A stretch of DNA of 21,886 bases from the IMG/VR virus record IMGVR_UViG_3300046010_005740, positions 1 through 21,886 of that record, one strand, 5' to 3'. Position 1 is the first letter of the stretch; the number at the start of each line of letters is the position of its first letter. The notes beneath the pieces are model-generated. The model saw only the letters and a program-made list of their open reading frames with translations, had not been told where the DNA came from and ran no database searches. The translations under genes were made by a program, and so were the position numbers. This DNA is from a virus. Below are positions 2,172 to 7,980 of the stretch, in pieces.

Positions 2172-2437
2172 TGGCGGCCCTCCGCTAGTTTAACTGCGGC
2201 AACGCCTGCATTAAGCCCGTCGATCCAGTAGGCGTTGACCTCATTCCAAGAACGCCCGCTCAAATGTTCTTGCGGGCAGTCACCTTGGATTGTGTCGTCG
2301 TTTTCAATGAACCATTGCAGCGCGCTATGGAGCGCCTCGATCACATCGGCGGCATGGTCCGCGACTAGGAGCGCTTGCCCCGGATCGCGTAGCTGCTTGC
2401 ATAGGTCTAGCGTCTGGCGTGTTTCAGCGTCGGTCAT
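2168..2437 (-). CDS. hypothetical helical protein
   Basis: An 89-residue acidic protein with long predicted helices (ETRQTLDLCKQLRDPGQALL; VADHAADVIEALHSALQWFI) and a C-terminal Trp/Tyr-containing helix ending KLAEGRQ. It begins at an ATG overlapping the stop of the Gly-Tyr repeat gene as ATGA. No signal peptide or membrane segment is visible. I do not recognise the family. Phage early operons often carry such small accessory proteins. Confidence 0.6.
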   Translation of the reverse strand: MTDAETRQTLDLCKQLRDPGQALLVADHAADVIEALHSALQWFIENDDTIQGDCPQEHLSGRSWNEVNAYWIDGLNAGVAAVKLAEGRQ

Positions 2438-2724
2438 GGCGACACCTTCGCGCGTCGGATGTGATCGCTATTGTTGACAGTTCCGTAGCCGTTGCCGTAG
2501 CCGTCGCCGTAGCCGTCGCCGTAGCCGTTGCCGTAGCCGTAGCCGCTGCCGTAGCCGTCGCCGTAGCCGTAGCCGTAGCCGTCGCCGTAGCCGGAGCCGT
2601 CGCCGTAGCCGCTGCCGAAGCCGTTTCCGTATCCGTCTCCGTCTCCGTTTCCGTATCCGTAGCCGTAGCTGGAGCCGGAGCCGGAGCCGGAGCCGTTGCC
2701 GACAGGCTTAAAGCCTGCGCTCAT
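2434..2724 (-). CDS. Gly-Tyr dipeptide-repeat protein
   Basis: A 96-residue protein. A short N-terminus (MSAGFKPVGN) leads into about 70 residues in which every second residue is Gly, alternating with Tyr, Asp, Asn and Ser (GYGDGYGYGYGDGYGSGYGY is a typical stretch). It ends with a normal-looking tail of about 16 residues, TVNNSDHIRRAKVSP. The start ATG at 2724 overlaps the preceding stop as TGATG, and the stop overlaps the next gene as ATGA. The coupling argues that it is translated despite the low complexity. Such sequences are intrinsically disordered. Low-complexity Tyr/Gly proteins can self-associate, but no function is established here. My impression from memory, not a search, is that similar repeat proteins occur in other phages. 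Confidence 0.65.
   Translation of the reverse strand: MSAGFKPVGNGSGSGSGSSYGYGYGNGDGDGYGNGFGSGYGDGSGYGDGYGYGYGDGYGSGYGYGNGYGDGYGDGYGNGYGTVNNSDHIRRAKVSP
2483..2703 (-). repeat. hexanucleotide tandem repeat tract (GGCTAC/GGCGAC type)
   Basis: About 220 bases built from six-base units. On the minus strand these read GGC followed by TAC, GAC, AAC or AGC; on the plus strand they read as GTAGCC/GTCGCC variants. Unit changes are nearly all in the second codon. Because the unit equals two codons, gain or loss of units changes protein length without shifting the frame. The tract also leaves several other frames open, which produces spurious Val-Ala repeats on the plus strand. Confidence 0.85.
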
Positions 2725-3020
2725 CACAGCCCCCAGCCATCAGCAACAGGCACGCAAAACACTTCCGCGCCTTCTGGAATATCAACGTCTGCAACCTTGC
2801 GCAGATCAGCTTTGGCTTTCTTGGGATCGGCCACCATTCCAGAGAAGCCTTGCGACTCCCACTTGAAAACATGCAGCGCGTTGGCGAGCTTGATGCGGCC
2901 ATTTGCGCGCGTTACATCGCCTGCAAAAATCCACCCGCGATCTACGACGACAACAGCGCGCGAGCCGGTTGCTTTCTTGACGGGCGCATATTCGACACCG
3001 TTAATAACTACGTTTTCCAT
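2724..3020 (-). CDS. hypothetical protein, possibly DUF6948-like
   Basis: A 98-residue protein. After MENVVINGVEYAPVKK it contains SRAVVVVDRGWIFAGDV, ANALHVFKWESQGFSGMV and a C-terminal EVFCVPVADGWGL. The pattern of a beta-strand-rich fold, an alanine/Trp motif and a closing strand recalls small phage proteins of the DUF6948 type; that link is from memory and uncertain. The ATG at 3020 is preferred because GGAG lies eight bases upstream. The in-frame ATG at 3041 overlaps the stop of the microprotein as ATGA and is a real alternative, adding seven residues. It directly precedes the Gly-Tyr repeat gene. Confidence 0.7.
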   Translation of the reverse strand: MENVVINGVEYAPVKKATGSRAVVVVDRGWIFAGDVTRANGRIKLANALHVFKWESQGFSGMVADPKKAKADLRKVADVDIPEGAEVFCVPVADGWGL

Positions 3021-3037
3021 TGTGCTTTCTCCGTTGT

Positions 3038-3115
3038 TCATGGCGTTGCAATCCAAGCTATCGCGCCTAGCGCAAGGATCATGGTAAAGGCGAGGAAGTC
3101 AGAGAGGTCGCGCAT
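3038..3115 (-). CDS. 25-residue single-pass membrane microprotein
   Basis: A 25-codon frame beginning at ATG 3115, overlapping the upstream stop as TGATG and ending TGA at 3038-3040. The peptide starts MRDLSDFLAF and continues as a hydrophobic helix (TMILALGAIAWIATP), long enough to span or insert in a membrane. Evidence for translation is the perfect overlap at its start and the ATGA overlap at its end with a start codon of the next gene. Size, hydrophobicity and position resemble the microprotein at 4434-4517. Function unknown. Confidence 0.45.
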   Translation of the reverse strand: MRDLSDFLAFTMILALGAIAWIATP

Positions 3116-5790: not shown

Positions 5791-6005
5791 GCAGCAAAGC
5801 GCACCACAACAGAAGCCAGAAGCCCCGCGAACGTGTCGCACTTAACGTGCGCTGCGATGCTGTTTCAGAACTTAAGATGGAGGCTGACGCGCGCAACGTG
5901 GCGTTTGGAACGCTTTGCACGCGGCTGCTCGAAATCATCGCGGAGGACTCAAGCCTACTTGAGAACATTCTGGACGGCGACTTGGCAAAGCAGGAGGGCA
6001 GATAA
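5787..6005 (+). CDS. ribbon-helix-helix-like small protein
   Basis: A 72-residue protein with a basic N-terminus (HHNRSQKPRERV), a short strand VALNVRCDA, and two helices (ELKMEADARNVAFGTLCTRL and LEIIAEDSSLL). The order strand-helix-helix with a basic lead-in fits Arc/CopG-type DNA-binding proteins, so it may be an early regulator. The identification is by pattern only. It is coupled on both sides (ATGA before, TAATG after). Confidence 0.55.
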   Translation: MSSKAHHNRSQKPRERVALNVRCDAVSELKMEADARNVAFGTLCTRLLEIIAEDSSLLENILDGDLAKQEGR

Positions 6006-6454
6006 TGGGTAGTGGAAAACAGATTTGCAAGCGGCGCTCGCCTTACGTGTGGACGCCTGAGCGCGTTACTATGCTAACCGAAATGCACGACCAAGGCGTG
6101 AGCGATGAACAAATCGCAGTCGCACTCGGCCATGGCTTTAATCAGAAAATAGTGGAAAGCGCGCGCTGGCGGTTTGGAATAACCACGCGCCCCTTGATTG
6201 ACACCGAGAGAAAGCCAAGTGTCCTAATTGGCAAATCTTCGCGCGAAGTGATCGACCACCTGATGAAGAAATCCCCCGCGCAACTGACGCCAGCCGAGGC
6301 CAGCTTTTGCCACCTGATCGACCTTAAGCGGGCCGGTCATTCGCCCTCTGTCACTGAAGAACGCATCGACCACGATGGCGGCTTGCCGTGGCGTTGGAAC
6401 CCTCCCCCGTCGCTTATGTACCGCTCCCCCGCCGCCGCGCTTGTGGAGGGGTAG
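6005..6454 (+). CDS. GcrA-like helix-turn-helix protein
   Basis: A 149-residue protein. Near residues 15-45, VWTPERVTMLTEMHDQGVSD continues into EQIAVALGHG. This resembles the Trp-x-x-Glu-Arg-Val N-terminus and the helix-turn-helix of GcrA, the alphaproteobacterial cell-cycle regulator that binds methylated promoters. The C-terminal two thirds (SREVIDHLMKKSPAQLTPAE; DHDGGLPWRWNPPPSLMY) is not GcrA and is unknown. ATG at 6005 overlaps the previous TAA. If the likeness is real, it supports an alphaproteobacterial host. Confidence 0.55.
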   Translation: MGSGKQICKRRSPYVWTPERVTMLTEMHDQGVSDEQIAVALGHGFNQKIVESARWRFGITTRPLIDTERKPSVLIGKSSREVIDHLMKKSPAQLTPAEASFCHLIDLKRAGHSPSVTEERIDHDGGLPWRWNPPPSLMYRSPAAALVEG

Positions 6455-6457
6455 GGG

Positions 6458-7153
6458 ATGGGGCTTAACGCCGCTGCCGTCCGTGCATTGAAGGCTGCCG
6501 GGGTGTCCGATAGCCAAATCCTCGAAGCCTTTATTAAGGCGGACGAGGAACGGGTGGCGCGTGCGCGCGAGGGCAATCGTATTCGTCAGGCAACGCATAG
6601 GGCGCGTAACGCTAATAACGCTGTTACGCCCGTTACTGACGTGACAGAGACGGAGCAAAAGAAAGTTCCCCCAGACCCCCTAAAAGAAAATATATCCCCC
6701 AAAGAAAAGCCCCCTAAAGGGGGCCAAAAGAAAGGGGCGCGACTGCCTGACGACTGGCAACCGTCACCGGCTGACCGTGACTACGGCGCAAAGCTCGGGT
6801 TCTCGACTTCCGAAATGGACGGGATGGCTGAGGACTTGCGGTTGTGGGCATCGGCTGCGGCTGGCCCTGCGGCGATCAAACGGGATTGGGGTTCGGCTTT
6901 CAAAGGGTGGATGCGCCGGGAGGCACGGAAGCGCCCGCAGAACGGCGGCAAGCTGGCCTTGGTTTCATCGACGCCTGAGGATCGCAACGCAGCGTTGGCT
7001 AAGTCCGGGCAGCGATATTTACCCGGAGACCATCCGTTATTTTCGCAAGCAAGCGAGGACTACCGCGCCGAGCATGGGAAGTATCCGCCACGGGATAAAA
7101 ACGGCGGCTGGTATTTCCCTGAATCGTATTTCGCAGCGGAACACGCAGCATGA
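6458..7153 (+). CDS. putative phage replication-type protein
   Basis: A 231-residue protein in the position usually held by a phage replication initiator. An N-terminal helical part (VRALKAAGVSDSQILEAFIK, then a basic GNRIRQATHRARNA segment) leads into a Lys/Pro-rich linker at about 65-95. The C-terminal domain contains RLPDDWQPSPADRDYGAKLG and AIKRDWGSAFKGWMRREARK, a module found in DUF1376-associated and O-like replication proteins. The linker is encoded by repeated C-tracts and A-rich sequence that could form an origin. The start ATG at 6458 follows GAGGGGTAGGGG. The stop overlaps the methyltransferase start as ATGA. Replication role is inferred. Confidence 0.55.
   Translation: MGLNAAAVRALKAAGVSDSQILEAFIKADEERVARAREGNRIRQATHRARNANNAVTPVTDVTETEQKKVPPDPLKENISPKEKPPKGGQKKGARLPDDWQPSPADRDYGAKLGFSTSEMDGMAEDLRLWASAAAGPAAIKRDWGSAFKGWMRREARKRPQNGGKLALVSSTPEDRNAALAKSGQRYLPGDHPLFSQASEDYRAEHGKYPPRDKNGGWYFPESYFAAEHAA
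6665..6736 (+). repeat. C-tract/A-rich repeats within the replication gene, candidate origin
   Basis: Four CCCCC boxes (6668-6672, 6676-6680, 6696-6700, 6710-6714) alternate with A-rich spacers such as TAAAAGAAAATATAT. The last one pairs with GGGGGC in the hairpin GCCCCC-TAAA-GGGGGC (6709-6724). Iteron-like boxes beside an A+T-rich stretch inside a replication gene resemble the lambda O/ori layout. The repeat could equally just encode a Lys/Pro linker. Confidence 0.35.
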
Positions 7154-7980
7154 AAGAGCCATACAAACTCCTAGACCTATTCAGCGGGATAGGCGGGTTC
7201 TCCCTTGGTCTTGAACGCACAGGCGGGTTCAAGACGGTCGCGTTCTGCGAGATTGATCCGTTCTGCCGCAAGGTTCTCAAGAAACACTGGCCCGAGGTTC
7301 CGCAATATGACGACGTTCGCACGCTTACCGCAGAGCGACTTGCCGCAGATGGAATTGCCGTTGACGCAATCTGCGGAGGGTTCCCGTGCCAGGACATTAG
7401 CTTCGCTGGTAATGGAGCAGGCCTTGCCGGTGAACGCAGCGGACTATGGGCAGAAATCCGCCGTTTGGTTTGCCAACTACGACCAAAAATCGTGTGCGTG
7501 GAAAACGTCACAGCTTTGCTTAGTCGAGGGCTTGGAACGGTTCTCGGAGACTTGGCCTCGGTCGGGTATGACACGGAATGGCAAGACGTATCTGCTGAGG
7601 ACATCGGAGCCCCGCATCCGCGCTCGCGGGTCTGGATTGTTGCCTACCCCAGCGGCGCGCGACTGGAAAGATTGTGGTGCAATGAGCGAGTCGAAGCGCA
7701 AATCGCCAACACTCGCCGCGCTAATGATGCTTGCAACGCCGCGTTCATCGCGCGGTTACACGGCGTGGGCAAACGAGGGCTATCCGCCATCGTTGACGGA
7801 ACAGCTAACAGGCCTTCGTGGGCCGGCCAACAATGGCCTTCGTCCCAACCCCTGCTTTATCGAGTGGATGATGGGGTTCCCGATCGGGTGGACAGAACTA
7901 GCGCCCTCGGAAACGCCGTAGTTCCTCAAATTCCAGAACTCATTGGCCGCGCAATACTAGCGGCTGATGCCGCCGCCTAA
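7150..7980 (+). CDS. C5 cytosine DNA methyltransferase (orphan)
   Basis: A 276-residue enzyme that transfers a methyl group from S-adenosylmethionine to C5 of cytosine. Motif I is DLFSGIGGFSLG (9-20), motif IV is GGFPCQ with catalytic Cys80, motif VI is ENV (118-120), motif VIII is DIGAPHPRSRVWIVA (151-165), and motifs IX/X are ALGNAVVPQIPELIGRAI (252-269). The target-recognition region (about 166-239) is short. No restriction enzyme lies nearby, so it probably protects phage DNA or alters expression. ATG at 7150 overlaps the preceding stop as ATGA. The gene body contains a second long frame in the +1 register, described separately. Confidence 0.93.
   Translation: MKEPYKLLDLFSGIGGFSLGLERTGGFKTVAFCEIDPFCRKVLKKHWPEVPQYDDVRTLTAERLAADGIAVDAICGGFPCQDISFAGNGAGLAGERSGLWAEIRRLVCQLRPKIVCVENVTALLSRGLGTVLGDLASVGYDTEWQDVSAEDIGAPHPRSRVWIVAYPSGARLERLWCNERVEAQIANTRRANDACNAAFIARLHGVGKRGLSAIVDGTANRPSWAGQQWPSSQPLLYRVDDGVPDRVDRTSALGNAVVPQIPELIGRAILAADAAA
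7307..7921 (+). CDS. overprinted +1-frame gene inside the methyltransferase
   Basis: From ATG 7307 a 204-residue frame runs entirely within the methyltransferase in the +1 register, with GAGG nine bases upstream (7294-7297). The product does not look random. It contains ARTLASLV, YDQKSCAWKTSQLCLVEGLE, RFSETWPRSGMTRNGKTYLL, GSGLLPTPAARDWK, and near the end FIEWMMGFPIGWTELAPSETP. I recognise the ARTxA, FSETWPRSGM(T/M)RNG, LPTPxAxDWK and EWMMGFPIGWT blocks from separate phage proteins encoded next to C5 methyltransferases. Near the 3' end the same bases encode DDGVPDRVDRTSALGNAVVP in the methyltransferase frame. Upstream in-frame TTG at 7205 and downstream ATG at 7349 are other possible starts. 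Function unknown. Confidence 0.6.
   Translation: MTTFARLPQSDLPQMELPLTQSAEGSRARTLASLVMEQALPVNAADYGQKSAVWFANYDQKSCAWKTSQLCLVEGLERFSETWPRSGMTRNGKTYLLRTSEPRIRARGSGLLPTPAARDWKDCGAMSESKRKSPTLAALMMLATPRSSRGYTAWANEGYPPSLTEQLTGLRGPANNGLRPNPCFIEWMMGFPIGWTELAPSETP

Follow-up and report, generated by a model that had tools for sequence, protein, structure and literature searches.

Overlapping reading frames for two putative subunits of a C5 cytosine methyltransferase in viral DNA

Described split methyltransferases and the viral locus

In single-chain C5 cytosine methyltransferases such as M.HhaI, M.HaeIII and Dcm, one polypeptide holds the catalytic domain, the target recognition domain (TRD) and motif IX. 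Individual restriction-modification systems are known in which two subunits of an enzyme are dual-coded, and the β polypeptide of M.EcoHK31I is likewise encoded in another frame within the α gene. The large subunit of M.EcoHK31I carries motifs I-VIII and X and the small subunit motif IX only, and in M.AquI motifs IX and X are located on the small subunit (PMC3404938). The DNA analysed in this study, hereafter the window, is the whole stretch of 21,886 nucleotides of the IMG/VR virus record IMGVR_UViG_3300046010_005740. A single 831-base stretch on its plus strand, 7150-7980, reads as two open reading frames (ORFs) in overlapping frames, termed α and the nested β, with the following features.

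7150..7980, plus strand: α ORF, 276 amino acids, C5 cytosine methyltransferase with motifs I-VIII and X and no motif IX
7180..7197, plus strand: α motif I, FSGIGG, SAM binding; conserved in the α alignments of relatives
7294..7297, plus strand: GAGG, putative Shine-Dalgarno sequence of β by its sequence, 9 bases before ATG 7307
7307..7921, plus strand: β ORF in the +1 frame of α, 204 codons plus TAG, carrying motif IX
7375..7392, plus strand: α motif IV, GGFPCQ, with the catalytic Cys; invariant or near-invariant in α alignments, overlapped by β
7501..7509, plus strand: α motif VI, ENV; E118 and N119 conserved in α alignments, overlapped by β
7541..7582, plus strand: β conserved block FSETWPRSGMTRNG; P84, G87 and G92 invariant in 69 β sequences
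7615..7644, plus strand: α motif VIII region, HPRSRVWIVA; H156, R158 and R160 conserved, overlapped by β
7634..7666, plus strand: β conserved block GLLPTPAARDW; G110 and T114 nearly invariant in 69 β sequences
7862..7894, plus strand: β motif IX, EWMMGFPIGWT, dual-coded with α VDDGVPDRVDR; M189, G190, P192, W195 and T196 invariant in 69 β sequences
7903..7929, plus strand: α motif X, ALGNAVVPQ, immediately following motif IX in the DNA; G254, N255 and P259 conserved, with confident C-terminal helices in the model

An earlier note on this DNA had described the 204-codon +1 frame inside the methyltransferase, the GAGG nine bases before its ATG and a list of sequence blocks in its product, and all of these are present. 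As it also stated, the same bases near the end of β give DGVPDRVDRTSALGNAV in one frame and MGFPIGWTELAPSETP, followed by the stop, in the other; the TAG of β sits inside GTA-GTT of α motif X.

The locus resembles M.EcoHK31I (YGGCCR) in its architecture. In both, motifs I-VIII and X are carried by the larger polypeptide and motif IX by the smaller one, and the small polypeptide lies in another frame inside the α gene, an arrangement seen in the window and its relatives. M.EcoHK31I belongs to a restriction-modification system, whereas a scan of neighbouring ORFs in the window recognised no restriction gene. It also has a predicted TRD in α, whereas the stretch between motifs VIII and X of the window α is variable among relatives and modelled with low confidence. 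The sequence of M.EcoHK31I (X82231) was sought via E. coli genomes, plasmids and Enterobacteriaceae species, where only other homologues were found. The two-polypeptide architecture is thus already known; as far as the open-licence literature shows, its wide spread in phages and prophages and on one archaeal contig is new, as is its near-absence from annotation. No phage description of such an overlap was found among open-licence papers.

The locus is flanked on one side by recombination genes (YqaJ, ERF, RusA) and a GcrA-like gene, and on the other by terminase genes. The GcrA-like match, at 6005-6454 just upstream of the methyltransferase, is weak (E 0.004) and below the curated cut-off. This match and the location of the nearest relatives on Rhizobiales and Sphingomonas contigs hint at a host among the Alphaproteobacteria. 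Elsewhere in the window, a short-period repeat gives low-complexity ORFs on both strands, of the GYGYGNGDG and AVAVAV kind (2434-2727, minus strand; 2419-3087, plus strand).

The two proteins and their relatives

The α protein matched Pfam family PF00145 over residues 5-173 (2.7e-42) and, over nearly its full length, PHROGs family phrog_363 (3.3e-82). It holds all the motifs by which the catalytic domain of C5 methyltransferases was assessed, namely I, IV with PCQ, VI with ENV, VIII and X. Its predicted structure had an overall pLDDT of 81 and was confident for approximately residues 1-167 and the last 20, and residues 215-247, between motifs VIII and X, fell under a pLDDT of 50. Compared with M.HhaI, the model gave a Z score of 26.3 and an rmsd of 2.8, with 216 of 327 residues aligned. 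α shares the catalytic domain with M.HhaI, M.HaeIII and Dcm but not the TRD and motif IX; motif IX was found in the α frame of none of 80 window-type loci and none of 80 loci of a second clade. Lacking motif IX and a recognisable TRD, α alone is not a complete single-chain member of the family, and the α/β pair is. From the model we infer that the part missing from α would be the small domain with the TRD and motif IX.

A search of β against Pfam matched no family, and a search of the β profile against PDB sequences returned nothing relevant. In PHROGs, β matched phrog_1008 (2.5e-27), as did 69 of 69 aligned β sequences. This family, annotated as DNA methyltransferase, corresponds to the β family and phrog_363 to the α family; the PHROGs descriptions returned for the two hold nothing on overlapping subunits. 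The motif IX of β is spread over phrog_26627, phrog_27243, phrog_35493 and phrog_31772. Structure prediction of β alone was poor (pLDDT 60, pTM 0.26), and its fold is unproven.

A tblastn search at E<=1e-5 found β homologues in 130 phage records. Across phage, plasmid, viral and genome collections, the β homologue lay in the +1 frame in 256 of 256 loci, among them all 80 viral loci that had been picked by the methyltransferase motifs of α alone. The loci come from Pseudomonadota, Actinomycetota and Chloroflexota, a Bacteroides plasmid (L012) and an archaeal contig (L139, Candidatus Alkanophagales). The second clade, in which α starts with variants of AYYNE[FI]D, shares the nested frame and occurs commonly in enterobacterial prophages. 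In the records that were opened β is seldom annotated, and it is unannotated even in RefSeq E. coli prophages. The earlier note had recognised the blocks of β from free-standing phage proteins; the blocks are there, and in the cases opened the proteins turned out to be the overlapping ORF, annotated separately in Firecracker and Toaka, or its non-overlapping tail, the only part of β annotated in Samy.

Several prophage records were viewed individually. The second-clade methyltransferases of an E. coli ST131 lambdoid prophage (L459, nin region) and of L288 are annotated as one gene with no β CDS, and that of L459 adjoins ninE/ninF. For a prophage of E. coli PCP07014 (L010), the annotation lists the methyltransferase as a pseudogene that contains an internal stop; the +1 ORF also ends nearby.

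The position of the β start recurs among relatives. In the window's subfamily, the commonest first ATG lies 19 bases past the Trp codon of WPEVPQYDD (40 loci), as in the window, and 51 of 94 loci have a Shine-Dalgarno-like stretch ahead of the first β ATG. In relatives with the N-terminal sequence xNELALFAG, the β ATG is found 4 bases past that first codon in 67 of 67 (p 2.6e-28, not corrected for relatedness). The second codon of these relatives is AAT in 67 of 67, compared with 212 AAT and 335 AAC elsewhere, and an ATG for β is thereby created.

Selection in the overlap and the placement of motif IX

Synonymous shuffles, which preserve the α protein and its codon usage and composition, gave a mean of 4.2 stops in the +1 frame of 254 homologous loci and the real loci had none, an openness that is partly by construction because the region was set by the β match. 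When the region was set by methyltransferase motifs alone, the +1 frame was open in 60 of 66 testable loci against 2.8 expected from synonymous shuffles, and the +2 frame in none of the 66. In the second clade the +1 frame was open in 79 of 80 loci, with 3.3 expected. Unlike in the window family, the +1 frame is not kept open in Dcm-type genes, being open in 0 of 27 controls, which are few and in many cases close copies of one another. Because the loci are mutually related, these counts are not independent events. Scored with the β HMM, the real +1 frame exceeded all of its own synonymous shuffles in 254 of 254 loci.

Substitutions change position where the frames overlap. Differences at the third α position, which is the second of β, decrease from 0.552 before the overlap to 0.466 inside it, and those at the first α position, the third of β, increase from 0.208 to 0.344. 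This shift from third- to first-position change was seen in 388 of 407 informative pairs, and 19 showed the opposite. In the clearest pair (L087 and L094), 18 first-position changes and one third-position change were counted in 220 overlap codons, compared with 15 third-position changes in the 78 codons before the overlap (p 8e-9). In the comparison of the window with L098, its nearest relative, third-position changes drop from 24 of 45 before the overlap to 58 of 205 inside (p 0.0025), and N/S is 0.59 of expectation in β and 0.58 in α. At the dual-coded motif IX, β keeps MGxPxGWT. Its Thr is encoded by ACC or ACA in 123 of 125 sequences, though ACG is the commonest Thr codon across β, because only then is the α Arg retained; the α positions left free by β do vary, for example among D, H, N and Y. 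Each frame is thus constrained separately, and the substitution patterns show that purifying selection acts on both. The earlier note had called the locus genuinely dual-coding, with both frames looking conserved near the end of β, and had proposed two checks, that the +1 frame be kept open in phage C5 methyltransferases and that it show purifying selection beyond that of the main frame. The open-frame counts bear out the former, and the shuffle, open-frame, substitution and motif-IX codon tests support dual coding in which both frames are conserved and selected.

By regular expression, motif IX was found in β and motif X in α in 204 of 256 loci. In a 63-locus set, the expression found motif IX in neither frame in 24, and three of the 33 +1 matches, those of L393, L400 and L411, look spurious, so that about 30 remain. 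Other relatives place the motifs differently. The mycobacteriophages Firecracker and Toaka, the Gordonia phage Camerico and the Streptomyces phage Samy have a short α with motifs I-VIII and a β with motifs IX and X, a split enzyme like M.AquI (CYCGRG). A small subunit with both motifs was found in L004-L007, L369-L371 and L373; the window differs from M.AquI in that motif X lies in α and β is fully nested. The Gordonia phage Baddon (L014) and L372 are single-chain forms with motif IX in the α frame, and the +1 frame has stops in 6 of 6 loci of that kind.

The single-chain ORF of L372 has 504 residues, is close to Firecracker α and has 7 stops in the +1 frame; it represents either a fusion of the two frames that arose naturally or the state preceding a split. 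Baddon is a mixed form that has motifs IX and X in the α frame, yet also a 250-codon +1 ORF whose match to phrog_1008 (4.2e-27) covers the N-terminal part of that family.

Profile comparisons connected these forms. The β profile matched the AquI-like βs (99.8%) and the motif-IX stretch of the Baddon single chain (93%, E 2.4e-7). The AquI-like βs matched the C-terminal part of the single-chain family phrog_116, and the Baddon enzyme matched both phrog_116 and the β family phrog_1008. Against canonical E. coli Dcm, the profiles were in register on RLTPRECARLMGF...FGNSVVVP (motif IX), below significance. In a family tree, which was quick, with long branches and an arbitrary root, the AquI-like forms grouped with the single-chain L372 and L014 (SH-aLRT 99), near the nested forms; the tree gave no firm count of origins. 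The earlier suggestion that overprinting of motif X gave rise to the EWMMGFPIGWT family is rejected, since the block represents motif IX of the methyltransferase itself, displaced to the other frame, and is in frame with motif X in partly overlapping and single-chain relatives.

A putative two-subunit enzyme and alternative readings

We estimate a probability of about 0.88 that the locus encodes a two-subunit α/β C5 methyltransferase in overlapping frames, jointly active and most likely modifying phage DNA. α (7150-7980) would provide the SAM-binding and catalytic domain and motif X, without motif IX or a recognisable small domain. β (7307-7921) would have a translation start of its own within α, in the +1 frame, and would supply motif IX (EWMMGFPIGWT) and, probably, some or all of the small domain that recognises the target. 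Both proteins would then assemble into one active enzyme that needs each of them. Its role would most likely be the modification of phage DNA against host restriction; the recombination and terminase neighbourhood, where no restriction gene was recognised, makes such protection likely.

Motifs VIII, IX and X are collinear on the DNA as in the canonical enzyme, and IX and X switch frames among relatives, as might be seen if programmed ribosomal frameshifting produced one full-length methyltransferase with motifs I-VIII in frame 0, IX in +1 and X in frame 0. However, the nested form would require two opposite shifts, and α is open across the whole overlap with selected residues of its own. β moreover has its own start, marked in the window by GAGG and ATG and in 67 of 67 relatives by the ATG 4 bases after the first α codon, and we consider frameshifting very improbable. 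Only marginally better are the chances that β acts independently, as a regulator, inhibitor or anti-restriction protein whose gene happens to overlap that of the methyltransferase. This would be compatible with its missing Pfam match, but single-chain relatives hold the β motif within the methyltransferase chain, and motif IX was not found in the α frame of the nested loci tested. The earlier note had left it open whether the product modifies, inhibits or assists the enzyme; assistance appears most likely, and a separate regulator or inhibitor is disfavoured.

Long +1 ORFs are commoner at high GC, and codon bias or constraint on the α protein might therefore have produced the +1 frame as an artefact. 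Yet shuffles keeping composition and protein still gave about 3 to 4 stops, the low-GC loci (n=32) had none where shuffles predicted 5.9, and the position-specific substitutions contradict such an origin, whose probability we regard as negligible. A chance ORF or codon-bias artefact was ruled out by the synonymous shuffles and the Dcm control (0 of 27 open).

Within the two-subunit reading, it is possible, at somewhat less than even odds, that β is the whole specificity subunit, so that one overlapping pair yields a catalytic and a separate target-recognition subunit. If this is true, changes in DNA specificity would be constrained by two reading frames simultaneously and could be read from both, and some relatives would start both proteins 4 bases apart. 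More generally, overlapping two-subunit coding would be the norm in large families of phage and prophage methyltransferases. Because β is seldom annotated, an entry named DNA cytosine methyltransferase may cover one half of the enzyme, and the annotated product, if cloned by itself, could prove inactive or altered. The loci together also offer rich natural material for studying the evolution of overlapping frames, including transitions among the nested, partly overlapping and single-chain arrangements.
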